Source: Microcaldota archaeon (GTDB taxonomy: Archaea > Micrarchaeota > Micrarchaeia > Anstonellales > Anstonellaceae). Taken from it: a stretch of DNA of 33,273 bases. Within the stretch, counting starts at the first letter, position 1. Each line of letters opens with the position of its first letter. The DNA lies in the NCBI GenBank assembly GCA_021813025.1, contig JAKAME010000006.1:1-33273 (forward strand). Reading direction: 5' to 3'. The notes under the pieces were generated by a model. That model saw only the letters and a list, made by a program, of their open reading frames with translations. It made no database searches and was not told the origin of the DNA. Made by a program: the position numbers and the translations under genes. Shown piece after piece: positions 1,413-31,781 of the stretch.

Positions 1413-3518
1413 TTAGGAATTCCCGATATCAAATTGTAATACCAGCCTATCTGGGTCCAAGCTGAATACAATCTGGCGATCTTTTTCAGCAAGCTCATTA
1501 TTTCTCCGGAGTGAATGGACAAGACTGCGACAATGGTAAAGTTCAGGATTTTTCGGGTCTATTGATATGGCATATGACAGAGAATCGAGGGCACGTTTGG
1601 CTTTGTCAGAAGTGGTCATCTCTTCAAATTTCAAAGCCAGAATTTCACTTAACGCATCTTTTGCTAGAATAGCCAATTCCTTGAATTTCGGATTTTCGGA
1701 AGCAAATGCAAAGATATTATCTTCGTGACTCTCCATATTGAACAGAGTAGCCATACCCTTCCAGAATAATTCATTGGCAGTTTGTTCATCCATATTCACT
1801 CTCTGTCCGATTCCCTTGAAATCTGGGGGAGGCGTGAAAAGACCGCCTAAAGGCATTGTTGTTTTACAAATGAAGAAGTTATAGTCGTCCACACGGAATG
1901 TAAGAATATTGGCTTCAGAATCAAAGGAAACATCTCGGTATCCCCCACCGTAAACATTCTTGGTAGTTTCTTCCAATGTTGGGTAGTGACTCAGCGATGA
2001 CAAAAAGGCGATTGTTAGGAATGCTTGATCGGATGCACTTGGACAGCGACATAATTTGATGCGCGATTCGTACATTGATTTTAAAGCAGGGCTGAGGCTG
2101 TTGGATATCGTGTCAAGTATCTCTTGGGCCTTATCGAGTTGTTTGGCGCGGATGCAGGCGTCGAACATGTGGATAGGTAATTGGATAGGCACCGGGGCCT
2201 CATGGAACATTGTCTGGGCTTCAAATAATTTTTCAAGAATTTTTCCATGGCCAAGGGCTTTCAAGTCACGGTTGTCGCGGACGTAATCCTCGAAGCGTTC
2301 AACGAACTCTTCATCAGATAGCAAGCTGTAGTTGAGAATGGTCGAAAACATTATCTCCCGGTTGTAAAAATCAGTTCCAAGCTGCGGGTCGATATCGGCC
2401 AGTTTGGAGTTGCCCCCTTTTTCCATCGAGCGTATTTTCTCAACGACTTTTTTCTCCTCAATGGAAGCCGTCGGGTCTTTTGACAGTTTTATATTCAAAA
2501 GAAAGTCCGTTTGCACGCGATATGCTTTCATAAAAACGCGTTTGGCATCCTCTTGCCGCCCCTCAGACAAGTAAGCAAGGCCAAGGTGGAAATAGCCCAT
2601 CGGATTGTCGCATGATATCTGCAATAGGCGCAGGGAGGCGAGCTTCAGGCTCTTGTAGTCCCCTGATTTTCGCAGGTCGGGCAGGATGGCAATGAGCGAT
2701 GCGGGCGTCAAAATCTTGTAGAAGGAAGCAGGTGGGTAATCGCCTATCGACATGTCCAGCCCAACCATGCCCTCCGCCACAAGAAGGTTATTTACTGCAA
2801 GCGGCTCCCCCATCCGGGCGGCCTGCTTCAGGAAGCCGACTCCGTCCTTTTGAAGGTCGTTCGACATAATCGTTCCCGTATTGGTCAAATAGGCAGCGAT
2901 GAGGGACTCATCCGTCATCGGCACCATCACGCTGTGCTGGGCGCCAAAAACGTGCTGCGTAAAATCAATGAGGATGAGGCTCCACTCCCTGTCCGGCTGT
3001 ATCCCCGAAAGATTCAGGATCATTTTCTCGAATTCGCCATCCGCCTCAAAACGACGATGACGGAGTTTGCCCGGCACCTCTGTGCTTTCGAGAATGATGC
3101 CTCCGCACGCATGGAAGTCCCGCTGGGCCGGGACGCGGTACACCAGACATCCGATTGAAGCGGAATAATCCGTGTTGAGCCCCGCCTGGTTGCATATGGA
3201 CAGGAACAGAAATGTCTCGTCCAGGCAGCAAGCGAGCTTTTGGGTATACACTTCCGTTGCGGTGAACGCCTTTCCTTTTTCCCGGACGCAGTATTTTATG
3301 CCGTGTCGGCCGTCTATTTCAATATCATGGAGCAAATTCTCCAACGCCGCCATCTTGTCTCGCCTGTATTCAAGCCGAAATCTCCCGGCCCTTTCCACGA
3401 TTTTTTGGTCTGCCTGAATGGGGTTGATGTTCATCCACTTCCCGGCTACGTTGACGGTTTCGAACTGCTTCGCGTACAATCCGCGGCCCGCCTGATTCGA
3501 AATTTCTTTATACCCCAT
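1413..3518 (-). CDS. Transglutaminase-like fold plus TPR-like helical C-terminus, orphan protein
   Basis: ORF 1413..3569; ATG at 3518 (MGYKEIS) overlaps the upstream gene least. Cys/His/Asp arrangement LACCLDETFLFLSICNQAGL...DFHACGGIIL...WSLILIDFTQ; C-terminal TPR-like AISIDPKNPELYHCRSLVHSLRRNNELAEKDRQIVFSLDPD. Confidence 0.6.
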   Translation of the reverse strand: MGYKEISNQAGRGLYAKQFETVNVAGKWMNINPIQADQKIVERAGRFRLEYRRDKMAALENLLHDIEIDGRHGIKYCVREKGKAFTATEVYTQKLACCLDETFLFLSICNQAGLNTDYSASIGCLVYRVPAQRDFHACGGIILESTEVPGKLRHRRFEADGEFEKMILNLSGIQPDREWSLILIDFTQHVFGAQHSVMVPMTDESLIAAYLTNTGTIMSNDLQKDGVGFLKQAARMGEPLAVNNLLVAEGMVGLDMSIGDYPPASFYKILTPASLIAILPDLRKSGDYKSLKLASLRLLQISCDNPMGYFHLGLAYLSEGRQEDAKRVFMKAYRVQTDFLLNIKLSKDPTASIEEKKVVEKIRSMEKGGNSKLADIDPQLGTDFYNREIMFSTILNYSLLSDEEFVERFEDYVRDNRDLKALGHGKILEKLFEAQTMFHEAPVPIQLPIHMFDACIRAKQLDKAQEILDTISNSLSPALKSMYESRIKLCRCPSASDQAFLTIAFLSSLSHYPTLEETTKNVYGGGYRDVSFDSEANILTFRVDDYNFFICKTTMPLGGLFTPPPDFKGIGQRVNMDEQTANELFWKGMATLFNMESHEDNIFAFASENPKFKELAILAKDALSEILALKFEEMTTSDKAKRALDSLSYAISIDPKNPELYHCRSLVHSLRRNNELAEKDRQIVFSLDPDRLVLQFDIGNS

Positions 3519-6366
3519 TTTTCGACACCTTTTCAACGAAAGCTTCCAAATTTTCAGCAATCTGTCCACTATCCGCCCTCTTCGGGCTCAGGGAGCCATC
3601 CTCATTTTTCACGTATCCAAAGTCAAAGTTCTTGTAAAACTCGAAGGACAGGTATTTCTGGGCGTTCTGGACGAGTTCATTCGCGTCTCCTGAATACTTC
3701 TGGAACCTTGGTTGCGCGGCCTCTGAAATGAGCAATAGCGAGGTTGCGAGAACCTCCTGAACTGTCGGGTCTGATATGTTCAGGTGGGCCAGCAATTCAA
3801 CCGAACCCCGCATGGCAAGGTCCGTGAACGCGAGCGTGCGCGGAATGGAGGCGAATCGAGACTCATCCATGAATTTGAGTATTACGGCGGACATTTGCGC
3901 CGAGTGTTTCCAATCAAATGCATCGTGGAGCGTCAGGTTTTCCGCGGCTGCATGTTTTTCGACATAGCGGTAGGCACTCTCAAATCTGGGAACCAGTTCG
4001 AGTGGCCGGGCCGGGGAGCAAGAGACGAGTTCGTTATTGTCCCTGAGGAGCTGCAGCGTCAAGTCCCACATGTCCGGCTGGACTTCATGGGCCTTCTGAT
4101 AATTCATGGAGGCAGTATGAATCATTCTCGTGATTTCATCCGGTGCGGACCGAACGGGATACTTCTTCCGCATGGAAACGAAAGAATCCGCGATTTTGGC
4201 CGTCAAGCCCAGATGGTAATATGAATAACGCGTGTTCTGTCTCAGCGAGCTTAGTTCGGCCTCGGTCGTCAAACAGCGTTCGGAGAGATAGATGACCAAA
4301 TCATCCAACGACTGGGGCTTTGACCCAGAGTCCAGCGGCTGGACGGCGAACTTCAGCTGCTGGGCCATGTCCCCCCCTGTCTTTTCCGGGGCAAATTCGC
4401 CGTCTCCTTGGGGGGTCGTCTTCCGCTTCTTCTGCTTGGCATAATCCAAGGCGTGCTCCACGTACTCCGGTTTCAATATTACTCCAATGGCAAAAGACGG
4501 CTTTTTGCCAGTATACTCGGGAATGCCATCCTGAAGGTCACGCATCGGCGAAGCAGTCATTTGGGTTGCAGGCACAACCTGCCCATTCATGCGGCATATG
4601 ATGCCGGCCTGGGAACTCGCGTAGAAGTGGTCTCCGTATATCCGCTCAAGCGCTTCGTGGATTTCGGCCAGGGTCTGCACATGGAATTCTTTTGAACAGT
4701 AGGGCAATGCCGTCTCATCCGAGACGACGAGCTCGTGGAGTGTCACTCGAATCTGCTCCGGGACTTGCTCGGAGAATTTGGACGCGTATGTTTCAAATAT
4801 GTCATTCGCGCGCGTCTCGAAATTCTGGTAGTTTTCGAAGCTTTCAATCAGCAGGCTGGTCGATATCTCATTGGCGTTTGGGATATGCTGCCGCTGCTCG
4901 TAAACGGCATTATATCCCTCTCCGATGGTATCGAAAATCTGTTCCAATGTGGCCAATTTTCCATCGTTCTTGCTTGCGTAATTCACAATGGAGGATTCGA
5001 GCAAATGTGCTGTCTGTTCATCTATTTCAGAACCAAACTTCAATGAAATTTCAGATGCGAGGCTTTCTGCAGTTTGAATATTTGGGGATTTCTCTATTCC
5101 AGTTGACAATGGAGTATTTTTTAGGGACTCTGAGAAATTCGCCGTAGCTTGCGCGAAAATCTGCTTTTGCACTTCGCTTATGGGCAGATTATTTTTGTCA
5201 AGAGCAGATTTTAGAGTATTGATAACCTCATAAGCGTTCGGTTTTTTGGAGTACTTGAAGTAATAGCACATGCACACTTGAGCGACAAGCCTTTCGATGT
5301 ATTCCGGCTCGACATGCGACAGGGCTTCCCTGGCTTCCCGCATGGTGTAGCTAGAAAAGCCGGGCTTGCTCTTCATTTCAGTGATTTTGGCGTCTGTCGC
5401 TTCAGCCTTTTTGTTATCTTCCTTTAGCTCGGGGGGTTCGGTCTTTGAGGGATGCATGGATTCGGAAGGTTCAGACTCGTTCTCCTTCTGCTTGCTGATT
5501 TTCAGTTTAACCTGTTTGACATGATTGATGAAGTTCTCATAAGCTTCTGAAGATTGAGGAGGCTTTGGCTTTTGGTCTGGTTCGGCTGGCATGGTCTTTT
5601 GGCCTAACTCGAAGATTCGCTCGATATCTGATTCGGATACCCCTTTCGAGTGGAGTATCCGAACAACTGCCTTGTCATCTCGAGAGACGTATGCATCGAG
5701 GATATCTTTCTCGTCGATTCCGAGCTCATAGACTAAGTTCTTGAACGAGTCTAATGCGTTTTGATAAGATGCTACGAACGTGGCCCTATCGAACCTATCC
5801 ATGGCCTTTTGTGTAATCCACTCGGTTGCAGCCTCATTCAACCATTCGTTATTGAAGGAACCGAAATTATGACATAGCTCATGATAAACTGTAGAGGCGA
5901 TGAGATCCCCACGTTTAAGACTAGAGTTCTTTGGAAATTTTCTAAATTCGAGATCGACATTGACCAGATCGACCACAGAGATTGGATAATCTGAAGGAGT
6001 GAAACCCAAAACGCACTTTTCGATGACCAGGTTTCGGGCCATTCCTTCATTGTCATCGCATTCTTGACTGATTTTAGACTTTGAAAACCCATTTTTTGCG
6101 CCAACCTGACGGATACTTTCAGCAAGGAAACGAAACACCTCGTCGTGGGTGCCGCAAATTCGAAACACAATATCGCTGCTCTGCAGGCGCGGTGCATTTC
6201 CCAGACAAGTCTCCATGAACTTTTTCAGATTGTTGAAAACTAGTTCTTTGATTTTAGCATTTTGGGCTTCGGTTGGGCTCTCGGTTATGGTCTTCTGCTG
6301 GGAGAATTTATCGGGCCGCACTGAATCGCCTTGGGCGGCGAAAAATAACCTCTGAACCGGGCTCAT
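3508..6366 (-). CDS. Large orphan protein with gluzincin-type HEXXH metallopeptidase motif
   Basis: 952 aa ORF; STVYHELCHNFGSFNNEWLNEAATEWITQKAMDRF (HELCH plus downstream NEAATEW); charged linker then helical C-terminal region. Confidence 0.7.
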   Translation of the reverse strand: MSPVQRLFFAAQGDSVRPDKFSQQKTITESPTEAQNAKIKELVFNNLKKFMETCLGNAPRLQSSDIVFRICGTHDEVFRFLAESIRQVGAKNGFSKSKISQECDDNEGMARNLVIEKCVLGFTPSDYPISVVDLVNVDLEFRKFPKNSSLKRGDLIASTVYHELCHNFGSFNNEWLNEAATEWITQKAMDRFDRATFVASYQNALDSFKNLVYELGIDEKDILDAYVSRDDKAVVRILHSKGVSESDIERIFELGQKTMPAEPDQKPKPPQSSEAYENFINHVKQVKLKISKQKENESEPSESMHPSKTEPPELKEDNKKAEATDAKITEMKSKPGFSSYTMREAREALSHVEPEYIERLVAQVCMCYYFKYSKKPNAYEVINTLKSALDKNNLPISEVQKQIFAQATANFSESLKNTPLSTGIEKSPNIQTAESLASEISLKFGSEIDEQTAHLLESSIVNYASKNDGKLATLEQIFDTIGEGYNAVYEQRQHIPNANEISTSLLIESFENYQNFETRANDIFETYASKFSEQVPEQIRVTLHELVVSDETALPYCSKEFHVQTLAEIHEALERIYGDHFYASSQAGIICRMNGQVVPATQMTASPMRDLQDGIPEYTGKKPSFAIGVILKPEYVEHALDYAKQKKRKTTPQGDGEFAPEKTGGDMAQQLKFAVQPLDSGSKPQSLDDLVIYLSERCLTTEAELSSLRQNTRYSYYHLGLTAKIADSFVSMRKKYPVRSAPDEITRMIHTASMNYQKAHEVQPDMWDLTLQLLRDNNELVSCSPARPLELVPRFESAYRYVEKHAAAENLTLHDAFDWKHSAQMSAVILKFMDESRFASIPRTLAFTDLAMRGSVELLAHLNISDPTVQEVLATSLLLISEAAQPRFQKYSGDANELVQNAQKYLSFEFYKNFDFGYVKNEDGSLSPKRADSGQIAENLEAFVEKVSKNGV

Positions 6367-7085
6367 TCTAGTTCACCAAGCCAGCCCCCTAAATAGTACC
6401 AGTAGCATATTGGGTCGTTGGGGCGTTCTTTGCCGCTAAGACGGATATACGCTTGATTGACGGCTTCAAAAAGGGCAGGAGACTCGCGGCCGGGTCTGCG
6501 CGGATTGAACAAGGCGGTATTGAAATATACGACAGTGCGAGCGATTTTCTCGGCGACATTCGTACCAGATTCCAACAGTCGTTCGACTTCATCGATAGAT
6601 TCGGCCTTTTTGATTTGCTCCTCGATTGCAGATAACTCGCAGACCAACGGCTTAATCCGTTCAAGATAATCGAGAGGGGGAGTTCGCCATCTAAGAATGC
6701 ATGTCCGTACGCGCGGCCAATTGCCAGTTAGGCGCAGATATGCCTTATCCGCGGCCCCATAGACATCCGGGAGAACCTGGTCGATAGGCTCGGGCGTCAG
6801 ATATTTTGAGTCGAACCATTCTTTGGAGGCATCCTTAATCTTTATGCGGATGGCGATATTGGCACGCAGAAGACGGTTGACTTCTTCAATTGACGCGGAA
6901 TTTTTGATTTTGTTCTCGATTATAGCCAGTTCGTCTATCAGCGGCTGAATCCGCTTGAGGCAATCGGAAGGCACCTTTTGGGGCTTTTTTTCTGAAGAAG
7001 AAGGCGGACTCGATGGTGCTTGGTCAAAGCTGTCCCATATGCTCCCGGTATCGCTTCCACTCTTAGCCCTCTCTCTCCCACGCAT
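6363..7085 (-). CDS. Orphan protein with two tandem copies of a helical domain
   Basis: ORF 6363..7124 begins at TTG; ATG at 7085 (MRGRERAKSG) is preceded by TATA-like cttataaac. Overlaps next gene by ATGA. Internal repeat described in findings. Confidence 0.6.
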   Translation of the reverse strand: MRGRERAKSGSDTGSIWDSFDQAPSSPPSSSEKKPQKVPSDCLKRIQPLIDELAIIENKIKNSASIEEVNRLLRANIAIRIKIKDASKEWFDSKYLTPEPIDQVLPDVYGAADKAYLRLTGNWPRVRTCILRWRTPPLDYLERIKPLVCELSAIEEQIKKAESIDEVERLLESGTNVAEKIARTVVYFNTALFNPRRPGRESPALFEAVNQAYIRLSGKERPNDPICYWYYLGGWLGELE

Positions 7086-7107
7086 ACCCACATTATCTTT
7101 ATTTGTG

Positions 7108-7119
7108 TTTATAAGTTTA
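7108..7119 (-). promoter_or_regulatory. Probable TATA box for 7085->6363 operon
   Basis: On - strand aaacttataaac about 25-30 nt upstream of ATG 7085; lies inside the TTG-extended ORF. Confidence 0.45.
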
Positions 7120-7287
7120 TCCAACCCCCGGAGGCCCGACTCAGCCAGTCAAAAACGAGAAACAACTGTTTTATCAGATAGGCGCAAGCGACTGGGAGCC
7201 CAAGAAGCAGGCCTGCACGACGGCAAAGACTACGCGTATAAAAACATGAGGGCCGAATCGGGCTAGCTGAAAAGTGGGAGTACTGCT

Positions 7288-18950: not shown

Positions 18951-19010
18951 AAGCTATATAAGATATACGGCGGCGCGGCCTGCGCCCGAGCTATATAAGA
19001 TGTATGGGGC
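18951..19010. repeat. Two direct copies of ~20 bp agctatataagat(a/g)ta(c/t)gg
   Basis: gctatataagatatacgg at 18953 and gctatataagatgtatgg at 18990, 37 bp apart, between nop5 5' end and the 416-aa gene 3' end. Confidence 0.7.
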
Positions 19011-19032: not shown

Positions 19033-20283
19033 TCAGAAGGTGTCGGAATCGGTGATACGATAATTGGTATGGTAGAGGTCGCGCATTGCATGGTGGGCGG
19101 CCCATCGGACGGCCAGCTCGCTGGACTCTGCCGCTTGCCGGACGTCGCCGACGATTCCGGCCATGTCCTCATGAGCTCTTTGGCTGACTTCGCACAGTTG
19201 CTTCTCTTTGAGGTAGAAATGGACCATCCGGAAAACGAGCTGGTCTGCCGGATAATGCATTTTATCCTCTGAGGGTTTGGAAAACCACTCTCCGTGACTT
19301 TTGAGCCACAATTTCAGATTTGGCCCGTCAACCATCTCGCTCAGGAAAGCGGTCGCTTCTTCCAGCGTGTAATCATAATAGATATTGCGCGTTGGTAGCG
19401 AATAGATGGAAGAATGCTGTGTCGAAATGCCTGAATCCTCCGAGATGAAACGAGCCGTTGAATAGCCAAAATTGAAGAGATGGCGGATTTCGTGGATACA
19501 GGTCTGCGCAAAACCCCCCGGCCCAAAACCAGAAACATTGGAGATTAGACGCATGGCCTTCTGATTTGAAGCAGGAGAATAATCGGTAATCCATTTGAAG
19601 AATGCTGGGGAGAGGTAGAAATCCTGATGAGCGATTTGAGGAAGCACGTATATCAGGCAATTATTCATCGAAGCCGAGGCGATAGTGAAGCGGTCCGCAT
19701 CCGGGCCGTCCAGAAGAAGTATGGGGTATGTTTTGCCCCGATAGGACACCGAAACCTTGTGAGATGCTGAAAATAAATAAGATTCAGACCCGCCCAATTG
19801 GTGGTTGAACACATGCCCAGCCTGTTTCAGAATCAAGTGGTAGAGCGGTGTCAGGCGATTGCGCGCTTCGAACGAATCCGCACGAAGCGTTTGAAATGGT
19901 TTATTGGCGACAATGCCTGAATCGGGTTCCGAGCGGTTTTGGTTTTTTTCAAAGTCGGCGACGAGCGCCTCGTGCCAGCGCACGGCTTTCTCATTGGTAT
20001 CGGCCCAGACAGTCAGCAGCTTATAACAAAGATTTATCGATGGGACGCCTGTTTTCAATACATGCATGTCCAGTTTTCTGGCCTCCCAAGTCTCGCTTGA
20101 AGTGATGGGCGAAGAGCGGTGCTCGTCCAGAAACGGCTTGATTTCGTCCTTGAACAGCTTCAGGAATTTCGGATTCTTCGGCGGCCCGACCTCTTTTATC
20201 CAGTTCACGACCAGCGGCCGCGGGAACACTGCTGGCAGGGAAGAGGCGGGCTTTGGAGGGTCCCTTAGGATGATGGCTGACAT
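19033..20283 (-). CDS. Orphan protein with HEXXH metallopeptidase motif
   Basis: 416 aa; CIHEIRHLFNFGYS...YDYTLEEATAFLSEM (HEIRH plus downstream EEATAF). Confidence 0.65.
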   Translation of the reverse strand: MSAIILRDPPKPASSLPAVFPRPLVVNWIKEVGPPKNPKFLKLFKDEIKPFLDEHRSSPITSSETWEARKLDMHVLKTGVPSINLCYKLLTVWADTNEKAVRWHEALVADFEKNQNRSEPDSGIVANKPFQTLRADSFEARNRLTPLYHLILKQAGHVFNHQLGGSESYLFSASHKVSVSYRGKTYPILLLDGPDADRFTIASASMNNCLIYVLPQIAHQDFYLSPAFFKWITDYSPASNQKAMRLISNVSGFGPGGFAQTCIHEIRHLFNFGYSTARFISEDSGISTQHSSIYSLPTRNIYYDYTLEEATAFLSEMVDGPNLKLWLKSHGEWFSKPSEDKMHYPADQLVFRMVHFYLKEKQLCEVSQRAHEDMAGIVGDVRQAAESSELAVRWAAHHAMRDLYHTNYRITDSDTF

Positions 20284-20370
20284 GACTACATGTTATTTTT
20301 TATGTTTAAATATGTTTGCTTTGGAAAGAGGCGGCGCAAGCCATTAAAGAAGCATTGGTGTGGAGAACCC

Positions 20371-20895
20371 ATGCTCCTCTCGGACAGGGACATAAGGCAT
20401 GAGATATCGGCCCGGCGCATAGTCTTTACGCCCCGGCTGCAAGCCTCCCAAATCGGAGGCGCGTCGGTTGACCTCACCCTGGACGGCAAATTCTGGGCGT
20501 TCAAGACAGGGTATGCCAATTCGCACCGCCCTGTTGATTTGGACAAAGTGTCGTTTGCTGATGCCACGGAGGAAATGCGGCAAAAATCCATCATTCTTTC
20601 CCCCGGCCAAATAGTCTTGGGCATCACAAAGGAGAAAATCAGGCTGCCTGCAGACATAATGGGAAACCTTGAGGGCCGCTCGCGCTATGCGAGAATGGGT
20701 TTGGCTGTGCATATCACTTCAGCACTTGTGCAGCCCGGAAGCGACAACCACCAAGTGCTTGAAATCGTGAATTTCGCGCCGTTTCCTGTGAAAATTTCAG
20801 AAGGGATGAGGATAAGCCAGGTGGTTTTCCAATATCTGAAGCATCCGACCAGCAAGCCTTATGCGAAATTTGGGAAAGTGGCAAGAAAACAATAA
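20371..20895 (+). CDS. dcd: dCTP deaminase / dUTPase family
   Basis: MLLSDRDIRHEI, GGASVDLTLDGKFW, LSPGQIVLGITKEKIRLPADIMGNLEGRSRYARMGL, MRISQVVFQ. ORF also has an upstream ATG at 20290. Confidence 0.85.
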   Translation: MLLSDRDIRHEISARRIVFTPRLQASQIGGASVDLTLDGKFWAFKTGYANSHRPVDLDKVSFADATEEMRQKSIILSPGQIVLGITKEKIRLPADIMGNLEGRSRYARMGLAVHITSALVQPGSDNHQVLEIVNFAPFPVKISEGMRISQVVFQYLKHPTSKPYAKFGKVARKQ

Positions 20896-20914
20896 AACAA
20901 AATAAACGGCTCAA

Positions 20915-21751
20915 CTAGTTTTTGGCCACAACTCTTTTTGGGCTGGGCACTGCGGAGCCGGTCCGTTCTGTTTTGGCCGTGTCCATTTTCTTGATGGCCA
21001 TTTGCTTCCTCAGTTCCGACGCGATGGCCTCGGCGAGCTCCGGATCCTTGATTCGAGCGCGTTTGAGCGTTGCAAGGGCGTCCAGGTCTCTTGTGCGGCT
21101 GAACCCCCCCACCAACTCGTGCCGCACCTTGTAGGGCAGGTTCTCATTTTTCACGAAATAGATGGCCTGCTCACGAATGTCTGGGCATTCAGACATGCTG
21201 TCAATCATCGTGTTGGCTATATAGAGCCGATAGTCCAGCGGCGTTTCCTTGTTTCCGATACGCTGCGCGAAGAGCATTGGCAGGTCTGTGATTAGGACGG
21301 CGTTATATGATATGGTCCAATTGCCATCGGTCACGGGATATTCCTGCGCATCAAAAGCAACGTCGAGGATGGTCTGGGCCGCCAGATTGTAGTCATTCTT
21401 CATCTTCAGGCCGAAAACCATCTCAGCGGCGCCCTCCCGGACAGAGTTAGATTTGTCTTGGATGGCAAGCGAGATGAGCTTGCGGAGGGCCGGGCTGTCC
21501 GGCTTAGACCACAAGAAAGGGAGTACAGACATGAAACTCTCTTTTTGCGAAACTGAGAGCTGGCTGAAGAAATCCAAGACCGGTTCGATTGCCTTCTCTC
21601 CCGCCTTTTGCGCGTGTTGAAGGAAGATGGATATTCTCTTTTTTAGGCTGCCCATGCCAGACTCGAGGCTTGACTGGACGTAATTGAGCGACGTCTCCAG
21701 CTTCTGAAGCGTTGGGTCTATTTCGGGGGGAACGGTTTTCACAACAATCAC
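20915..21751 (-). CDS. HEAT/ARM-like helical repeat protein, orphan
   Basis: 278 aa; SLAIQDKSNSVREGAAEMVFGLK, CPDIREQAIYFVKNENLPYKVRHELVGGF. Confidence 0.55.
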   Translation of the reverse strand: MIVVKTVPPEIDPTLQKLETSLNYVQSSLESGMGSLKKRISIFLQHAQKAGEKAIEPVLDFFSQLSVSQKESFMSVLPFLWSKPDSPALRKLISLAIQDKSNSVREGAAEMVFGLKMKNDYNLAAQTILDVAFDAQEYPVTDGNWTISYNAVLITDLPMLFAQRIGNKETPLDYRLYIANTMIDSMSECPDIREQAIYFVKNENLPYKVRHELVGGFSRTRDLDALATLKRARIKDPELAEAIASELRKQMAIKKMDTAKTERTGSAVPSPKRVVAKN

Positions 21752-21807
21752 ATTTACATAGTATTAGATTAATATCCACAATAAAGCTTATAAGACTTGG
21801 GCCAAAT

Positions 21808-21840
21808 GCCAAGTTCTGGGAGGTGGCGAGAAAACAATAG
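21808..21840 (+). pseudogene. Orphan copy of dcd 3' end (AKFWEVARKQ*)
   Basis: gccaagttctgggaggtggcgagaaaacaatag versus dcd 20863-20895 gcgaaatttgggaaagtggcaagaaaacaataa; 8 of 10 residues identical, mostly third-position differences. Confidence 0.75.
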
Positions 21841-21868
21841 GCACAAAGCGGATGGATGGCGATAAAAC

Positions 21869-22546
21869 TTATTTCTGCTTGCGGCCAGCATAGGACATCC
21901 CGCCTCCCGGCACCGAAACGCTGATTTCCGCCCCCGGCAGGCCCTTGTGCGACATCCAATGGCCCAGCAAGTCTGCGCCGATTTTGACCAGCACTATAAT
22001 CGGGGGCCAGAAGTTTAGCAGCGCGCCCCCAATCACCACCAGATGCATGAAGATGACGCGCGGATAGGGGCTGAAGAATATCTGCTCGGCGGGCATGCTC
22101 TCGCGCTCCCCGCCCCAGATGAAATGGAAGAAGAACGACAGGGCGTGGCTGAGCAGCAGGACGAGCGCGCCCCAGAGCACGGCAGGCAGGACGTCGAGGC
22201 TTGCGCCAAGGAATGCCAGCAGAAACACCAGATGCACGAACATGAACAGGCCGAAATGCAGGGAAAAGAAGCCCATCAGCGCGAGGCGGCCGGCGGCCGA
22301 GGCGCCGTCGATGTCTCTGGTTGTTCCGCCCGCCGTAACCTGAAATGGCATGGGCTTCTTGGAACGGCTCATCCACAGCTTGAGAAGGGTGAAGAAGCCG
22401 ATGATGGCGCTCTCGCACCAGTAGATGAGCAGGTATTGCGACATCTCCCACTGGCCGCTCATGCCGGCGGAGAGAAGGGCGAGATTGGCTATGAGCAGGG
22501 CCAGAATCGAGAAGCCGAATGAAACCATGGGAGGATTGGCGCGCAA
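21869..22546 (-). CDS. Polytopic membrane protein (DUF6498-like)
   Basis: MVSFGFSILALLIANLALLSAGM...YLLIYWCESAIIGFFTLLKLWM...; several TM helices. Family name from memory. Confidence 0.65.
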   Translation of the reverse strand: MRANPPMVSFGFSILALLIANLALLSAGMSGQWEMSQYLLIYWCESAIIGFFTLLKLWMSRSKKPMPFQVTAGGTTRDIDGASAAGRLALMGFFSLHFGLFMFVHLVFLLAFLGASLDVLPAVLWGALVLLLSHALSFFFHFIWGGERESMPAEQIFFSPYPRVIFMHLVVIGGALLNFWPPIIVLVKIGADLLGHWMSHKGLPGAEISVSVPGGGMSYAGRKQK

Positions 22547-22563
22547 TGGCTTATAAAAATGGC

Positions 22564-22596
22564 TAAATCACGCTTGCGCCCGCAGCGCGCTGGATT
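22564..22596 (-). pseudogene. Orphan copy of infB 3' end (IQRAAGASVI*)
   Basis: 33 nt, 2 mismatches to 24961-24993, both synonymous. Confidence 0.85.
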
Positions 22597-23391
22597 TTAA
22601 CCCTGCTCCAGCAGGGCATCAAACGCCGCGCGGGCGGCCGGTCCAACTTTGCCGCCAAGCTCTTTTTCGGCAGCAACCACCAACTCCTTGTTGGTCGGGC
22701 CGGCCGGCACTAGCACCCCGCCACGGTTGACCAGCACGTCGCCGACGTAGAGGCCCCGCCCGTCGCCGTCGTCGCCGCAGTCGTCGCCGCGCAAGAACGA
22801 GCCAAAAGCGCTCCAAAGATTCAGATAGAGAGCCTGCTTGTCCGAGCGCTCGGAAGAGGCGCCTTTGGGCACGCCATCCGCTCCAACATACCAGCCATCT
22901 CTATCCACTCCAGTATACCAACCCTCGCTTGTTGGCAGGTTTTCGATGAATTGGATGAACTGGCGCATCTGGGGGGAGAATTCGCCGGAGATGCTCACGC
23001 TGCCATTATTGATGGTGCAGATAGAGGGATTGATGACAAAGAGCGCATTGGACGCCCCCAGTTGTTCTTTGGTGAAGAGTTTCTCTGCGTTTGGCACGAT
23101 AAGCTCGCCGTTTCCGACCACGGTGAGGGTGCAGGCCTTTGGGCCGGTCTTGCTGATGGAGTCAATAAGGGGAGTGCGGGTGTTGACCGAAAAGCCCAGG
23201 AAAAGGGCCATTTCGCGCATGATGGCCTTGAACTCTTCTGGGTTCTGTTTGGCGAACCGCTGCACCTCGGCCGGGCCGTACATCTTCTCGAAAAATTTCT
23301 GGCCGGGAGTCTGGTTGGCGGTAACGTTTCGCGCAAGATTGACGCCAGCCGCAACGCGCTCGGTTTTGAAGTTGGAAGCCATGAGATGCAC
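22597..23391 (-). CDS. Orphan hypothetical protein
   Basis: 264 aa; no family recognised; stop codon abuts infB-terminus copy. Confidence 0.55.
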   Translation of the reverse strand: MHLMASNFKTERVAAGVNLARNVTANQTPGQKFFEKMYGPAEVQRFAKQNPEEFKAIMREMALFLGFSVNTRTPLIDSISKTGPKACTLTVVGNGELIVPNAEKLFTKEQLGASNALFVINPSICTINNGSVSISGEFSPQMRQFIQFIENLPTSEGWYTGVDRDGWYVGADGVPKGASSERSDKQALYLNLWSAFGSFLRGDDCGDDGDGRGLYVGDVLVNRGGVLVPAGPTNKELVVAAEKELGGKVGPAARAAFDALLEQG

Positions 23392-23445
23392 CTCGTTCGA
23401 TGTATTTATTGTGTAGAATGGTGTTTAAATAAGCATCTATAAATC

Positions 23446-23468
23446 TAAATCACGCTGGCTCCGGCCGC
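23446..23468 (-). pseudogene. Orphan copy of infB 3' end (AAGASVI*)
   Basis: 23 nt, 3 mismatches to infB, all synonymous. Confidence 0.75.
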
Positions 23469-23473
23469 TCAAA

Positions 23474-24886
23474 TCACGCCGTACGAGCGAACTTCTCGCG
23501 CCGGATGGCCCTCTCGACCGTCTGTTCGGCCCTTATCTTGGCTGGCGCAAGCTTTAGCGCAACTTCATTATACCTGTCCTTGATGTCAGAGGCAAACAGC
23601 TTGACCCCAAGCCTTGCCATGCCCCTTGACTCCATTTTCGCAAGCTTGTCAAGGCCTTGGGATTTTACATAGGCGATTTGAGATTCCGGAATGATGCCGC
23701 TGTTGGTTGCCGTTATCAGCCATTCGAGCCCAAGGCCGGTGGCATGGTAAAGCTCAACCTCGCTTTCGGCCTTGTAAGCCATCCTTCCATACTGACCAAG
23801 GACATGCAGAGTGGTCTTGACCGGGTTGAGGTCGTTTTCAAACATGATGGGAACTGCGTCTGACTTCTGCTCCGTGCGGATGATCTGGGTGAAATACTGG
23901 CCCTGCACCTGCGGGTGGGCGAGATTTTCGTTTGTTATTTGGAATCCTAATTTTTCAAGCCCTGATTTGTATATTTCATCCAGAGGATAGGTCGAGCAGA
24001 TGACCAGCGCTTCGCCCACGATGGCATCATGGAGCTTTTGATAGGAGTTTGCTGAGGTTATGGATGGGTTTCCTGCAAAATAATGGTCCAAAACCTGCTG
24101 CACCTTGGAAGAGAGGACGTTTTCTTTTTGGCAATTCTCCCCAAGCTTGGTGGTGGAGAAAATGGCCTGTATCTGGGTGGTTTCGCCCCTGCTGACCAGC
24201 CCTGCCGCCGTGTCGATTTGGGAGATGGTTTCTGTGTTGGGAATGAGCTTGTTCTCGATGAAGACAATTTGGCGGTTTCGACCGAAGTTTTGAGCTCTAA
24301 TCGATAGGAACTTGTCGGTGATATCCTTTTCCATGATTGAATGAGAGTCCGAAAGGCCCGCATCTTTGAGGAGGTAGAAGATGACATTCTGGCCATTGCG
24401 GCCTTTAGATTTGGAAGCCCATTTGAAAAGAGCCCTCGCGCTGCCGACAGAGGTTTTGTTGATTTTTGGGTTTTGAAAATCTCTAGTAGTGAGTGAGAGC
24501 AGCTCTTCTGTTGAGAGATTCTTGACTTCTTTGTTGAACTTGTTCTTGAGGAATTCGTAGAGGCAGACCTTGCGGACTGCTTGGCTGTCGAAGCCTTTGA
24601 AGTCAGAATTGGTTATGTTGTGCTTACCGGCAAGGCCCGCGTCTTTGAAGATGAAAAATATGACATTCTGGCCATTGCGGTCTTTGGAGTTTGTGGCCCA
24701 CACATAAAGACTCGATGCGCGTCCTACAGAGGTTTTGTTGATTTTTGGGTTTTGAAAATCTCTACTAGTGAGCGAGAGCAACTCGTCTCTGGTGATGTCC
24801 TCGATTGGTTTGCCGAACAGGTTCTGGAGGAATTCGTAGAGGCAGGCCTGGCGATTTTCTGGATTATTGAACATAAACCTGGACAT
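23474..24886 (-). CDS. Orphan protein with two tandem N-terminal domain repeats
   Basis: 470 aa; RNGQNVIF..KDAGL and LLSLT.RDFQNPKINKTSVG repeated 93 codons apart. Confidence 0.65.
   Translation of the reverse strand: MSRFMFNNPENRQACLYEFLQNLFGKPIEDITRDELLSLTSRDFQNPKINKTSVGRASSLYVWATNSKDRNGQNVIFFIFKDAGLAGKHNITNSDFKGFDSQAVRKVCLYEFLKNKFNKEVKNLSTEELLSLTTRDFQNPKINKTSVGSARALFKWASKSKGRNGQNVIFYLLKDAGLSDSHSIMEKDITDKFLSIRAQNFGRNRQIVFIENKLIPNTETISQIDTAAGLVSRGETTQIQAIFSTTKLGENCQKENVLSSKVQQVLDHYFAGNPSITSANSYQKLHDAIVGEALVICSTYPLDEIYKSGLEKLGFQITNENLAHPQVQGQYFTQIIRTEQKSDAVPIMFENDLNPVKTTLHVLGQYGRMAYKAESEVELYHATGLGLEWLITATNSGIIPESQIAYVKSQGLDKLAKMESRGMARLGVKLFASDIKDRYNEVALKLAPAKIRAEQTVERAIRREKFARTA
24447..24798. 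repeat. Intragenic direct repeat, 279-bp period
   Basis: acagaggttttgttgatttttgggttttgaaaatctcta[g/c]tagtgag[t/c]gagagca at 24447 and 24726. Confidence 0.85.
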
Positions 24887-24959: not shown

Positions 24960-26735
24960 CTAAATCACGCTTGCGCCTGCCGCGCGCTGGATTTCGTCAA
25001 GCAAAACAAGCTCTTTCTCCGTAAGCAGGCCGGGCGAACTTCTCAGTCTTTCCGCCTGCTGCTTTGAAATAAACACATACAATGGCTCGCCCATCTTGAA
25101 AGTCTTGCCGCAATAGGGCTCGTCCATCGAAATTGCCGCCTGCCCTCTTTCTGAAAGCAAATCCAGGGACTTGCCCTTGTCCTGAATTGCTTTCACGACC
25201 CCAATCATCTGCCCGCTAGCAGTCATCAGCTGCGCCCCGGGCCTAAGCCTTCCTGCCTGCACTTCCACGCCGAAAATGGCCGGCTTGCACAAACGAAAGC
25301 AGCAGTTGGGCAGGGCAACTATGCGCGCAGGCAGGGCAAGCTCTGAGAGCGCCGAGCGCTGGTCTCGCTCCTTCTCCTCATTTACCCAAGCAAGATAATC
25401 TTCCAGCAGCTTGTAGACTATTTCAGACTGGAAGAGGTGAACGTTTCCGCGCTGGGATTCCTCCAGCGCTTCTGGCAGGAGAGGCACGTTGAATGCCAGC
25501 ACCACTCCAAGATACTTGTCCCCAAGCGAGGCTGCGCGGGCGGAAATCACGTCCTTCTTGCCCACAGGTCCCACTCCAAGAGAGCGGATGGGAATCTGCG
25601 CATTTTGCAAGAGGCGCATCAGCGCTTCGGCAGAGCCAAGAGTGTCAGCCTTCACCACCACGCCGGCCAGCGCTTCGTTGGTGACAAGAATTGACTTGAC
25701 CTGCGAGCTGATTTCCTGCTCGATTGCAGGCGTCAGCTCAAGGGCGCCCACCACCTCGATTGGCGAGCCGGCCAGCACGCCCTCAAGGCCTGGGGCGTAA
25801 ATCTTCACCCCTGCTGCGGCATGCACCTCTTCCACATACACATAGTGAGAGCTGGCCGACGGAGTCTCTCCGGGCCGGGGCGGGCGCAGAAGGCCGCGAA
25901 TCTTCACCACCCGCGCCCCTTCAGGCGTGCCGAACACAACAAAATCGTTGCGCCTCAGCGTGCCGTTGTACACTATGACGTCGATTGTGGTGCCGAGGCC
26001 CTTCTCCTCCTTCACTTCGAGAATGGAGCCTTTGGCCGGGCCTGACTCTGCCTCCTCAAGCTCGCGGCCCAAGTATTTCTGCGAAAGGCCGGCCAAAAAG
26101 AGCAGCAGCTCGGCCATGCCCTCGCCGGTTTTGGCTGAGCAGGGCACCATGACAAGCTGCTTTGTGAAATCAGACACGCGGTCGAAGCGCTCTGATTCCA
26201 GCCCCATTTCCGAGAGCCGGCCCACGAGCGCATAGAGCCTCTCCTCAAGCAGCTGCTGCACAGACGGGGGTTGGGAGGCGAGGGACTGCGAAAAGCTGGC
26301 AGTCGGCTGGCGCTTCCATCCCTGCAAAAGGTCGATTTTGTTCAGCGCTATGATAAAGGGCGTTTTCTGCGAGCGCAGGATTTTGATTGACTCGGCAGTC
26401 TGTGGCTGTATGCCCTGCATGATGTCTATTACCAGAATTGCGATGTCGGCAATGGAGCCGCCGCGCTCGCGCATGGATGTGAAGGCGGCATGGCCCGGCG
26501 TGTCGATGAAGAGAAGGCCAGGCACTTTCAACTGGCTCTCTGCCTGCGCGCGCAGCGGCCCGCAGGCCGAGAGTATGGCCTCGCGCGGCAGGTAGGAGGC
26601 GCCAATCATCTGGGTGATTCCGCCGGCCTCTCGCGCGGCAACCCCGGTGCCGCGTATGCGGTCAAGTATGGAGGTCTTGCCGTGGTCCACGTGCGCGAGG
26701 ATGCAGACAATGGGTGAGCGCAGCATGGGAAACAC
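24960..26735 (-). CDS. infB: Archaeal translation initiation factor aIF5B
   Basis: IVCILAHVDHGKTSILDRIRGTGVAAREAGGITQMIGASYLP; LLFIDTPGHAAFTSMRERGG; ALNKIDLLQGW. Start possibly ATG 26726. Confidence 0.95.
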   Translation of the reverse strand: MFPMLRSPIVCILAHVDHGKTSILDRIRGTGVAAREAGGITQMIGASYLPREAILSACGPLRAQAESQLKVPGLLFIDTPGHAAFTSMRERGGSIADIAILVIDIMQGIQPQTAESIKILRSQKTPFIIALNKIDLLQGWKRQPTASFSQSLASQPPSVQQLLEERLYALVGRLSEMGLESERFDRVSDFTKQLVMVPCSAKTGEGMAELLLFLAGLSQKYLGRELEEAESGPAKGSILEVKEEKGLGTTIDVIVYNGTLRRNDFVVFGTPEGARVVKIRGLLRPPRPGETPSASSHYVYVEEVHAAAGVKIYAPGLEGVLAGSPIEVVGALELTPAIEQEISSQVKSILVTNEALAGVVVKADTLGSAEALMRLLQNAQIPIRSLGVGPVGKKDVISARAASLGDKYLGVVLAFNVPLLPEALEESQRGNVHLFQSEIVYKLLEDYLAWVNEEKERDQRSALSELALPARIVALPNCCFRLCKPAIFGVEVQAGRLRPGAQLMTASGQMIGVVKAIQDKGKSLDLLSERGQAAISMDEPYCGKTFKMGEPLYVFISKQQAERLRSSPGLLTEKELVLLDEIQRAAGASVI

Positions 26736-26844: not shown

Positions 26845-27612
26845 CTAATCCTCGTCTTCCTCGCATTCGTAATCCACGCACCACTTCTCCGGGGGCGCGC
26901 AGTGGCCGTTGCCTATGCACTCCACGCAGATTTTGCCGCCGCCGGTGTCATAGCAGTGGTGCGACTGGCAGTCGTTGGGGTTGAAGCACGGAGCGCCGTT
27001 TGGAAGGCCGGTGAATCCGCCGAGGCCTGCGCCTGTCAGGGTGAAGTTCGGGCCGCAGCGGCCGATGAGCGGCTCGCGGCCTATCTCGCGCTGGGCCGGC
27101 AGGTCCAAATCCTGGCTGAGGTAGGTGAGGTTGAGGTTGAGCTCATACCCCTGATTTGGAGCGCACGAGCCGGCGAGGGAAAGATAGAGGTTCTTGCGCC
27201 GCCCCCCCTCAACGTCGAGCGGGCCGCTGATGTCGAGCGGGACGGCGTTGCGCGCGTCCATGCCGCTGCCGGTCACGTCGGCCTGAACCACCTGCATTAT
27301 GGTGGAGCGGGTGTTCATGAGCGAGAGCGTGAGCACGCCGTCCGACGAGAGCGAATGGTCGGTCACTGCGAACGGGGCTGCCTGTGAGCGCCAGTAAGAG
27401 TTCGACATCGAGGAGCGGGCGTCGTAGGAAGAGCCGGGCAGGGCGCCGATGAGCGCGATGACCACGAGCGCTACAATCAGCACCGCGGAGAGCAGGATGA
27501 GATACTCCGTGGCCCCCTGCGCCCTCAGGGCCTGGTTTGGGAAAACCGGAAGGGCGGGGATGCTGCCCGGAAGAGGCCTGCTGCCGCCGGGAGGGAGAGG
27601 GCGCGGAACCAT
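26845..27612 (-). CDS. Class III signal-peptide pilin-like protein with Cys-rich C-terminus
   Basis: QGATEYLILLSAVLIVALVVIALIGALPG; C-term CFNPNDCQSHHCYDTGGGKICVECIGNGHCAPPEKWCVDYEC. Confidence 0.85.
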   Translation of the reverse strand: MVPRPLPPGGSRPLPGSIPALPVFPNQALRAQGATEYLILLSAVLIVALVVIALIGALPGSSYDARSSMSNSYWRSQAAPFAVTDHSLSSDGVLTLSLMNTRSTIMQVVQADVTGSGMDARNAVPLDISGPLDVEGGRRKNLYLSLAGSCAPNQGYELNLNLTYLSQDLDLPAQREIGREPLIGRCGPNFTLTGAGLGGFTGLPNGAPCFNPNDCQSHHCYDTGGGKICVECIGNGHCAPPEKWCVDYECEEDED

Positions 27613-29416: not shown

Positions 29417-29896
29417 CTACTGGCAGATGACCGCGACAGGCGTCTCGCTGGCCTGCACCTTGCCAATCAGCGGGTCGTCGTCGTAGATTATGCGCACGGT
29501 GTAGAAGTAGGCCTGCCCTGTGCGGCCTGCGCAGGTGGGCATGGACGCGCCGCCGCCGATGACCATCACCCGCTTCTGGCCGGCCGTGAAAATCGTCTGG
29601 CTGGCGTTCGTGAACGAGACTCCGTCGCTGAAGCTGAGGTTGATTGAGTCCATCACCAGCTCGTGCGCGAGGTTGTTCTGCACCACAAGCGAGATGTTGG
29701 ACTGGCCGCTCTGCGCCGCGTCCCCGATGCCGAAAGGCTGCGCCGACATCCAGTAGGCGCGCGACTGCGCGTTGGACAGGCCGCCGGCCTGCGGGAAGAA
29801 GCCGCCGATGAGCGAGAGCACCACCAGCGCTATCACAAGAACCACTGAGAGGATGACGAGATATTCGGTGGAGCCCTGGCCTTTGGCAAAAATCAT
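29417..29896 (-). CDS. Class III signal-peptide pilin-like protein
   Basis: MIFAKGQGSTEYLVILSVVLVIALVVLSLIGGFFP. Confidence 0.85.
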   Translation of the reverse strand: MIFAKGQGSTEYLVILSVVLVIALVVLSLIGGFFPQAGGLSNAQSRAYWMSAQPFGIGDAAQSGQSNISLVVQNNLAHELVMDSINLSFSDGVSFTNASQTIFTAGQKRVMVIGGGASMPTCAGRTGQAYFYTVRIIYDDDPLIGKVQASETPVAVICQ

Positions 29897-29909
29897 CAAA
29901 TCGCCAATC

Positions 29910-30533
29910 CTAATCTGAGCACTGCACATATAATGGTTTGGCCCCGAGCTCGGAGAGGCCGCCGACCTGCCCCGCAGTGTAGCTGATGCTGACTTCGTAC
30001 GCAAGGGTCTGCCTGCCCGCGCAGGATTCGGTGGTGAAATCCACCTGCGTGCGGCCGCCTGAAGGCAGGCTGACGGGCAGGGAGGTTGATGGAGTGTAGA
30101 TTGCAGACGGGCGAGTGGAGAGGTTGATTCCCCCCACCCGCACCGTGAGCGGGGCGGAATTTACGAGGATGATGGAGAGGGAGGAGCCGGTCTGCTTGAA
30201 GTCTGCGATTTGCAGCGGGCTGGCGGCGGAGGCCCACCAGCGGGCCGAATCCCCGGCCTGCGCCCCGTAGGAGAAGGAGGGAAAGAGGCCGAAGGCCCCG
30301 AGTATGATGAGGGCCAGCGTCAGCACGACGGCCAGCACTATGAGGTATTCGGTTGATGCCTGCGCCCTCGCACATGGGGGGAGGGCGGAATGTGGCGCGC
30401 TCGGCCCAGAGCCGGATGGGGCCGGCTGCCCCGGCTTGGGGCTGGAGAAGGCGGGAAAACAGGGCGGACGGAACCCGAAAGCTTGATGCGGTCCCGCAGG
30501 CATGGGAAGACCAGAGCGGCTCATTCTATGCAT
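29910..30533 (-). CDS. Class III signal-peptide pilin-like protein
   Basis: CARAQASTEYLIVLAVVLTLALIILGAFGLFP; start codon uncertain (unusually long leader). Confidence 0.75.
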   Translation of the reverse strand: MHRMSRSGLPMPAGPHQAFGFRPPCFPAFSSPKPGQPAPSGSGPSAPHSALPPCARAQASTEYLIVLAVVLTLALIILGAFGLFPSFSYGAQAGDSARWWASAASPLQIADFKQTGSSLSIILVNSAPLTVRVGGINLSTRPSAIYTPSTSLPVSLPSGGRTQVDFTTESCAGRQTLAYEVSISYTAGQVGGLSELGAKPLYVQCSD

Positions 30534-30979
30534 GGCCCAATCAGCGGCTTGACGCCGGAGAAGCGGTTGTTGAGGTTGGAGGAGGCGTAAGCGATGGACA
30601 CGTTGGGGTATTCAAAGTAGTCGTAGGTGCTGGCGTTGCAGGCCCGCAGGCCGGCCAGCGCCACGGTCTTGACGGCTCCGCCGTTGAAGATTATGCCGGT
30701 GGTGTTGGAGGCGTTGCTCAGCGAAACATTGGTCAGCGTCAGGCGCTCTGTAACCATGTTCTTCATGGTCAGCGTCATGGTGCTGCCCTGCTGCTGCCAG
30801 TCCAGGATGGCGAACGGCTGGGTCGAGCTCCAGTACTGCCTTGTCTCGGACATGCGCGCGTCGCCGCCGAAAGCGGGGAAGGCTCCCAAGAGGGCTATGG
30901 CCACCAGCGCGACGATGAGCACCACGGCGAGGATAACCAGATATTCCGAGGCGCCCTGGCCCCGACGCGTGTCTTGCAT
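30521..30979 (-). CDS. Class III signal-peptide pilin-like protein
   Basis: MQDTRRGQGASEYLVILAVVLIVALVAIALLGAFP. Confidence 0.88.
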   Translation of the reverse strand: MQDTRRGQGASEYLVILAVVLIVALVAIALLGAFPAFGGDARMSETRQYWSSTQPFAILDWQQQGSTMTLTMKNMVTERLTLTNVSLSNASNTTGIIFNGGAVKTVALAGLRACNASTYDYFEYPNVSIAYASSNLNNRFSGVKPLIGPCIE

Positions 30980-31036
30980 TGCATCACCCTGAACGTACGC
31001 TGGACTTATGAAAGAAAAGAAAAAAGGAAAACGGGC

Positions 31037-31534
31037 TCAGGCGCACTTGCCCAGGATGGTCTTGGTGCCGTACTGCCTCTGTCCGGGGATTGTGCTGTCG
31101 TAGGTGACGTTCACCGAGTATTCGTAGATGGTTCCCGAGGTGCAGTTGGCGCCGCTTCCGTCAGTCAGATAGACCGTCTTGGTTTCTCCCGAGCCTATGT
31201 AGGGGGTGTTCGGGGTGGCCACGCCGGCTATGGAGAGGTTGGCGCTGTTGTTGAAGAAGACGCCCCCCGAGACGGAGATGTTGACAATCTTCAGCTGCTC
31301 GGTCTGCACGTTGCGCATGACCATTGTGAGGTTGTTGTCGGTCTGGGCGTGCTCAATGATTTGGAACGGGCTTGCGCCGCGCCAGTAGGAGTCCGACTCG
31401 GACTTCTTGGCGTCATATGACAGGCCGGGGAAGAAGCCCAGCAGGGCAATCGCGACCATCGCGACAATCAGCACGACGGCCAGGAGCACCAGATACTCGG
31501 TCGCGCCTTGGCCTTTCTTGAATTTGAACGACAT
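31037..31534 (-). CDS. Class III signal-peptide pilin-like protein
   Basis: From ATG 31534: MSFKFKKGQGATEYLVLLAVVLIVAMVAIALLGFFP. Confidence 0.88.
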   Translation of the reverse strand: MSFKFKKGQGATEYLVLLAVVLIVAMVAIALLGFFPGLSYDAKKSESDSYWRGASPFQIIEHAQTDNNLTMVMRNVQTEQLKIVNISVSGGVFFNNSANLSIAGVATPNTPYIGSGETKTVYLTDGSGANCTSGTIYEYSVNVTYDSTIPGQRQYGTKTILGKCA

Positions 31535-31781
31535 GGCTGCATCCCTCCATCGGAGCTTTCGACGGGATATAACGGCATAGATTATATAAAGGTTTCGAAA
31601 AAATCCCCCCGACGCTGCTTCGGGGTGAAAAGCCGGGCTTGCGCGCGCCCGGCGGAAGATTTGCGCGGGGCGTAAAAAGCAACTGGGCATGCGGAAGAGG
31701 CCGGGTGGATAGACAAAACAGTGGAAAGTCACCCTGCAAAACCCCTAATAAGCGCGTGCAGAAACCAGGATAGGTGAGCGT

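Follow-up and report, generated by a model that had tools for sequence, protein, structure and literature searches.

In conjugation experiments with E. coli in which homology was present at one end only, most products were duplications that arose via single crossover of circularised molecules (PMC3240628). At icd of the same species, insertion of the prophage e14 (also of phage 21) supplies a synonymously recoded C-terminus that makes the gene whole again, and icdC is the tail left downstream. The Glomus genes atp6, cox2 and nad3 have a foreign C-terminus followed by an inserted ORF and the displaced native C-terminus (PMC3630166), and among 68 mapped cases of thaumarchaeal integrated elements, 14 were in the 3' region of a protein-coding gene (PMC6563490). 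For DPANN archaea, no earlier description was found in the open-access literature, a scope outside which most subscription papers fall. The question addressed here is how these streamlined, host-dependent archaea gain genes when neither plasmids nor integrases are visible.

The window analysed is the entire contig C26 (33,273 nucleotides) of the source genome G000, a metagenome-assembled genome (MAG) of 1.34 Mb in 99 contigs that is 78.7% complete and whose nearest relatives are Candidatus Micrarchaeota. C-numbers denote contigs of this genome, and function names given without a Pfam match are our own reading of the sequences. The features of the infB-dcd locus were as follows:

24960..26735, (-) strand: infB (aIF5B) host gene, from the ORF list, with orthologues in 56/59 relatives
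24960-24995, (-) strand: infB terminus, EIQRAAGASVI*
23474..24886, (-) strand: 470-aa cargo ORF, two tandem repeats close to its N terminus, not confidently assigned to a family
23445-23468, (-) strand: displaced infB terminus 1, AAGASVI*, 3 synonymous differences in 7 codons
22597..23391, (-) strand: 264-aa cargo ORF, no family
22563-22598, (-) strand: displaced infB terminus 2, KIQRAAGASVI*, 2 synonymous differences and 1 edge difference
21869..22546, (-) strand: 225-aa DUF6498 membrane gene (Pfam PF20108, E 8.5e-37)
21808-21840, (+) strand: displaced dcd terminus, AKFWEVARKQ*
20915..21751, (-) strand, opposite to dcd: 278-aa HEAT-like cargo ORF, weak HEAT match
20302..20895, (+) strand: dcd host gene, from the ORF list
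20863-20895, (+) strand: dcd terminus, AKFGKVARKQ*
19033..20283, (-) strand: 416-aa orphan between dcd and nop5, no family

The 470-aa and 264-aa ORFs each lie between successive infB termini, with the stop of the 264-aa ORF directly abutting displaced infB terminus 2, and the dcd termini enclose the 278-aa ORF. The original statement that three of the four orphans are flanked by a duplicated gene terminus was therefore correct; inspection of the window found no displaced terminus at the fourth, the 416-aa orphan. The DUF6498 gene sits between the outermost infB and dcd copies. In the same-genus genome G003, infB and the convergent dcd are 11 nt apart and nop5 comes next; neither orphans nor copies are present. 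A 251-aa gene follows infB in G002 and a 234-aa gene in G001, neither with a displaced tail. The four infB-dcd genes in the source genome were regarded as additions because the gap in relatives lacks them. This includes the membrane gene, which had been taken as conserved and which none of the examined relatives has between infB and dcd. The genes past the displaced infB and dcd tails match those right after the host in relatives; likewise, at the KaiC, PH-domain, GH57 and GlyRS hosts, the genes past the displaced tail are those directly after the host in G002. The family of the 470-aa protein is also present in G003, G008, G011 and G017, always elsewhere in the genome. Its structure predicted from the single sequence had a pLDDT of 39.7 and was unusable, and a search of viral contigs for the 470-aa and 416-aa genes produced no match.

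Other features of the window were also recorded. The TATA region of the nop5 promoter is doubled, 37 nt apart, as CCATACATCTTATATAGC and CCGTATATCTTATATAGC (18953-19007, (-) strand), and the upstream version equals the single copy of G002 and nearly that of G003. Adjacent small genes at 29417-31732 (-), and also at 26845-27612, have a common QGA(S/T)EYL(V/I)L N-terminal segment and make up a family of class III signal peptide (pilin-like) proteins arrayed in tandem. Three large consecutive orphans (718, 952 and 253 aa) stand beside conserved genes at 1413-7124 (-), of which one is TPR-rich and one has a weak peptidase M1 match.

Gene tails were scanned over 1.246 of the 1.340 Mb of the source genome (93%), with 1197 called genes. 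The last 14 residues and the stop of each gene were compared at the protein level with the 5 kb downstream, with 20 shuffles as control, which is the scan that the original prediction had proposed. At a score of ≥34, 17 matches including paralogs were found compared to a shuffle mean of 0.65 (maximum 3), with 0 on the opposite strand; at a score of ≥38, there were 15 matches compared to 0.3 in shuffles. Tandem paralogs (C28, C29, C40 and part of C96) were taken out of the 17 by hand. Overall, about 16 host genes in 1.25 Mb have a displaced terminus. Together with the cases in other Micrarchaeota described below, this bears out the expectation of further displaced termini of ~33 nt, and the orphans were not syntenic in relatives. 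Hosts with an insert are infB (two tails), dcd, an ACT-domain protein, Kae1, PurH, a HerA-like ATPase (two tails), V-ATPase subunit D, a GH57-like protein and GlyRS (C96). A myo-inositol-phosphate-synthase-like host has a short spacer without an ORF before its second tail, and five hosts (KaiC-like, V-ATPase B, HD-domain, GGGPS and PH-domain) have an abutting second tail without cargo, in tandem with a period of 27-38 nt. A SHOCT-type pair on C20, the paralogs on C28, C29, C40, C94 and C96 and the repeats on C69 and C93 were dropped as displaced tails. C29, C40, C44 and C94 (L061, L076, L080 and L130) hold a large family of Cys-rich repeat proteins arranged in tandem, in which CMFCFN...KAKRYAIGNVE motifs are conserved and DIYNIGxKR-like tails recur.

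A scan of the DNA with the last 24 nt of genes, conditioned on neither a stop nor protein similarity, gave 14 matches in the source genome, of which 11 were followed by a stop. By hand tally, the mismatches in these 11 fell 7/6/31 at codon positions 1/2/3 (binomial P ~5e-7). C-terminal 9-mers searched without a stop requirement gave 16 copies at a score of ≥32, 12 of which had a stop next. For peptides from 20-80 codons inside genes, the copies were mainly paralogs and a long GlyRS copy, with none of note that ended in a stop; start-codon counterparts in the source genome were only paralogs; and no convincing copy of a tRNA 3' end was found among the 24 tRNAs tested. Among 362 genes called in 400 kb of E. 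coli K-12, none had a stop-ending copy within 4-5 kb, and with the range extended to 20 kb exactly one was found, icd/icdC at prophage e14, which served as the positive control with 12 mismatches distributed 1/0/11 by codon position and ending at the stop.

Comparison of the two tails in the 17 pairs showed an identity of 0.85 over the last six codons and of 0.21 over the 15 nt past the stop, and the stop codon itself differed in 11 of them. Since the homology ends at the stop, the pairs resemble orthologous genes of different species and not a target-site duplication. Copy-to-copy identity was ~80-85%, like that of orthologues between G000 and G002, and in the C5 pair one Ser is spelled TCC in one copy and AGT in the other. 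All 17 pairs together had 63 synonymous and 69 non-synonymous codon differences, partly because the aligned core overruns the true homology in some pairs; the argument for recoding is therefore based on the clear pairs and the unconditioned set and not on this total. As to which tail is native and which is foreign, the signals were mixed: dcd and PH hint that the distal copy is older, and GlyRS hints that the proximal copy is native. Local identity of the host genes was uninformative for identifying the foreign tail, as their 3' parts were not unusual. No 6-mer was shared at the left boundaries beyond what is found at random gene ends, i.e. no common core motif. Stop-codon readthrough was ruled out as the offsets are not all multiples of three.

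The cargo usually consists of a single ORF or a single toxin-antitoxin pair with tight boundaries, for example a 479-aa ORF at PurH and HicA/HicB at GlyRS. Most cargo has a GC content of 40-52% compared to 58% genome-wide, the exceptions being the second infB insert, the first HerA insert and the GlyRS insert. No domain was shared among the cargo families, and the window orphans had no confident family except DUF6498. No LAGLIDADG, GIY-YIG or HNH match was found in any cargo. A 196-aa C5 cargo was read by eye as a PD-(D/E)XK nuclease, a candidate that was set aside as it had no database support. No donor genome with the cargo beside the same host gene was found when the 470-aa family, the only one followed, was traced.

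Displaced tails were also found outside the source genome. In 1.3 Mb around GlyRS from 80 Micrarchaeota loci, 8 matches had a score of ≥34 compared to 1 in a shuffle; recurrence at GlyRS is biased in this set as every locus was picked for GlyRS. At L232, a 153-aa HTH-like gene has a PemK/MazF-type toxin between two of its tails, and the three versions of ALxEITKALEMLEK* differ by 7-11 synonymous and 1-2 non-synonymous codons. A nucleotidyltransferase is inserted at a reductase-like gene at L202, and among the weaker matches a 185-aa ORF runs in frame into the tail at L218 GlyRS. At both L202 (2568-3072) and L218 (5796-6354) the cargo ORF was observed to be in frame into the displaced tail, so that the host C-terminal peptide would form the end of the cargo protein. 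G008 (L188) has three EAFL-type HerA tails in succession within ~130 nt and without cargo, and PurH of G002 has a second tail without cargo. Some tails at L157 and L067 are exact or neutrally diverged tandem repeats. Tail mismatches outside the source genome were distributed 14/11/10 by codon position, i.e. without codon bias, which fits either copies of greater age that are in decay or simple tandem duplication.

For recombination machinery, a single virus-type tyrosine recombinase was identified in the source genome, a 428-aa protein with a zinc-ribbon-like tail (L073 4185-5471, on C37, (-) strand). Its score fell short of the family cut-off, its neighbours are virus-like genes, and the C37 region is possibly a provirus. 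Cas1-type casposase was absent from this 78.7% complete genome, and no integrase was found inside the inserts among the cargo families and ORFs examined. The statement that no integrase is visible thus holds for the window and does not extend to the genome. The displaced tails are real; a dedicated cassette system with its own recombinase, as originally proposed, is not established, given the missing core motif, Cas1 and shared cargo domain, the recombinase below the cut-off and the duplications without cargo. Recombination at the short coding homology, which had been offered as an option, fits better than a dedicated system. What is seen in this genome looks like an unnamed gene-capture route by which foreign genes were recurrently inserted behind the ends of housekeeping genes.

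The best explanation, in which we place about even confidence, is that DNA from related species was integrated additively and repeatedly, anchored by short homology at gene 3' ends. A donor fragment consisting of the last stretch of a conserved gene and the adjoining gene would enter the cell and would be circularised, or joined illegitimately at one end. The simplest route would be a small circularised fragment and a single crossover in the short coding homology ending at the stop, with the outcome that a host gene with a complete, partly donor-spelled tail would be followed by the foreign gene and then by a second tail downstream. Most surviving repeats are ~7-12 codons long, probably as shorter ones would rarely recombine and longer ones would recombine out again; the range of tail lengths may thus be a balance of recombination efficiency and stability. 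We read the pairs as two orthologous tails from diverged genomes joined together; we infer the interspecies donor, the circularisation with a single crossover and the stability argument. Homology-anchored integration would explain why the repeat is direct and ends at the stop codon, the tandem accretion and the lack of a shared motif or recombinase, and a crossover inside the repeat would give mixed native and foreign signals, though this is not proven. The abutting tails without cargo are not accounted for, since a period of 27-38 nt cannot come from 30-bp circles. The absence of 5'-end counterparts is a point against this explanation and calls for a selection argument.

The main rival is an e14-like process in trans, in which minimal cassettes would use the recoded tail as attachment site for site-specific integration by an integrase encoded elsewhere, with repeated accretion. 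The identical signature of icd/icdC in the same scan, the tandem arrays at infB and HerA, the compact single-ORF cargo, the one tyrosine recombinase of the genome and the thaumarchaeal elements at coding 3' regions all speak for it. Against these stand more than 10 unrelated target genes without a common core motif, the position of that recombinase among virus-like genes and below the family cut-off, the lack of convincing tRNA targets and the existence of tails without cargo, and we consider this process possible but clearly the less probable. Slightly more doubtful is an archaeal capture system of single-gene or toxin-antitoxin cassettes with the recoded tail of a specific housekeeping gene as their address, which would be excised and reinserted at gene 3' ends via trans machinery. 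A homing-type process, in which an endonuclease of the cargo or of a lost partner would cut gene 3' ends and repair would co-convert a recoded tail, would give the anatomy seen in Glomus atp6, cox2 and nad3 (PMC3630166) and could draw on the PD-(D/E)XK-like look of the C5 cargo. That look has no database support, however, the three endonuclease families searched are missing from the cargo and most of the cargo is toxin-antitoxin, membrane or of unknown kind, which makes homing improbable.

Ordinary tandem or target-site duplication, followed by an unrelated insertion and decay of the second copy, would fit the exact or neutrally diverged repeats at L157 and L067 and the unbiased mismatches outside the source genome. 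Within it, the third-position bias and the homology stopping exactly at the stop count against such an origin, as a target-site duplication would overrun the stop at random. Slippage and target-site duplication are disfavoured because such copies should not end at the stop every time, and decay of one copy because a decaying copy should not keep a third-position bias. We therefore hold duplication for unlikely, somewhat less so than homing. Chimeric assembly of co-occurring species in the metagenome might be suspected in a MAG of 99 contigs, but no assembler-misleading sequence common to cargo ends and tails was seen, and cases occur in independent assemblies of other studies, with complete cargo ORFs and tandem arrays. 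Assembly chimerism is thus very unlikely, the least probable of these readings.

If homology-anchored integration is true, the 3' ends of conserved genes would be general landing pads for interspecies gene capture that require no dedicated machinery; should a recombinase take part, this would be a new cassette system. The displaced recoded tail is an easily searched fossil of acquisition, from which events, their order and donors could be counted genome-wide.

Among the known systems, integron cassettes are likewise compact single-gene units in tandem arrays with toxin-antitoxin cargo. Each repeat in the source genome, in contrast, is a tail belonging to the host gene at that site. A single tyrosine recombinase was found, of virus type, and no integron-type recombination site was noticed. 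Archaeal integrated elements and casposons (PMC6563490) also use 3' coding ends as targets and are sometimes in tandem as here; unlike the present inserts, they are larger and have an integrase or casposase together with short repeats. The fungal mitochondrial mobile ORFs of Allomyces and Glomus (atp6, atp9, cox2 and nad3) are single ORFs that bring a foreign tail and displace the native one, with copies that diverge largely synonymously as in the archaeal case (PMC3630166); they encode LAGLIDADG or GIY-YIG endonucleases, whereas the archaeal cargo is not recognisably endonuclease. The likeness to e14 at icd lies in the alternative C-terminus, the stranded tail and the third-position signature, although e14 has one target, a length of 15.2 kb and its own integrase, compared to more than 10 targets, inserts of 0-1.6 kb and no integrase in the insert in the source genome. 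In homology-facilitated illegitimate recombination (HFIR) and circle crossover (PMC3240628), one-sided homology likewise leads to a gain of foreign DNA and to a second copy of the homologous segment. Those duplications were obtained in laboratory bacteria and measured 109-950 bp, whereas the tails in the source genome are mostly 21-40 nt, natural, recurrent and confined to gene 3' ends. As expected from HFIR and circle crossover, the duplicated segment has a homology ending where donor and recipient would diverge, which here is the stop.
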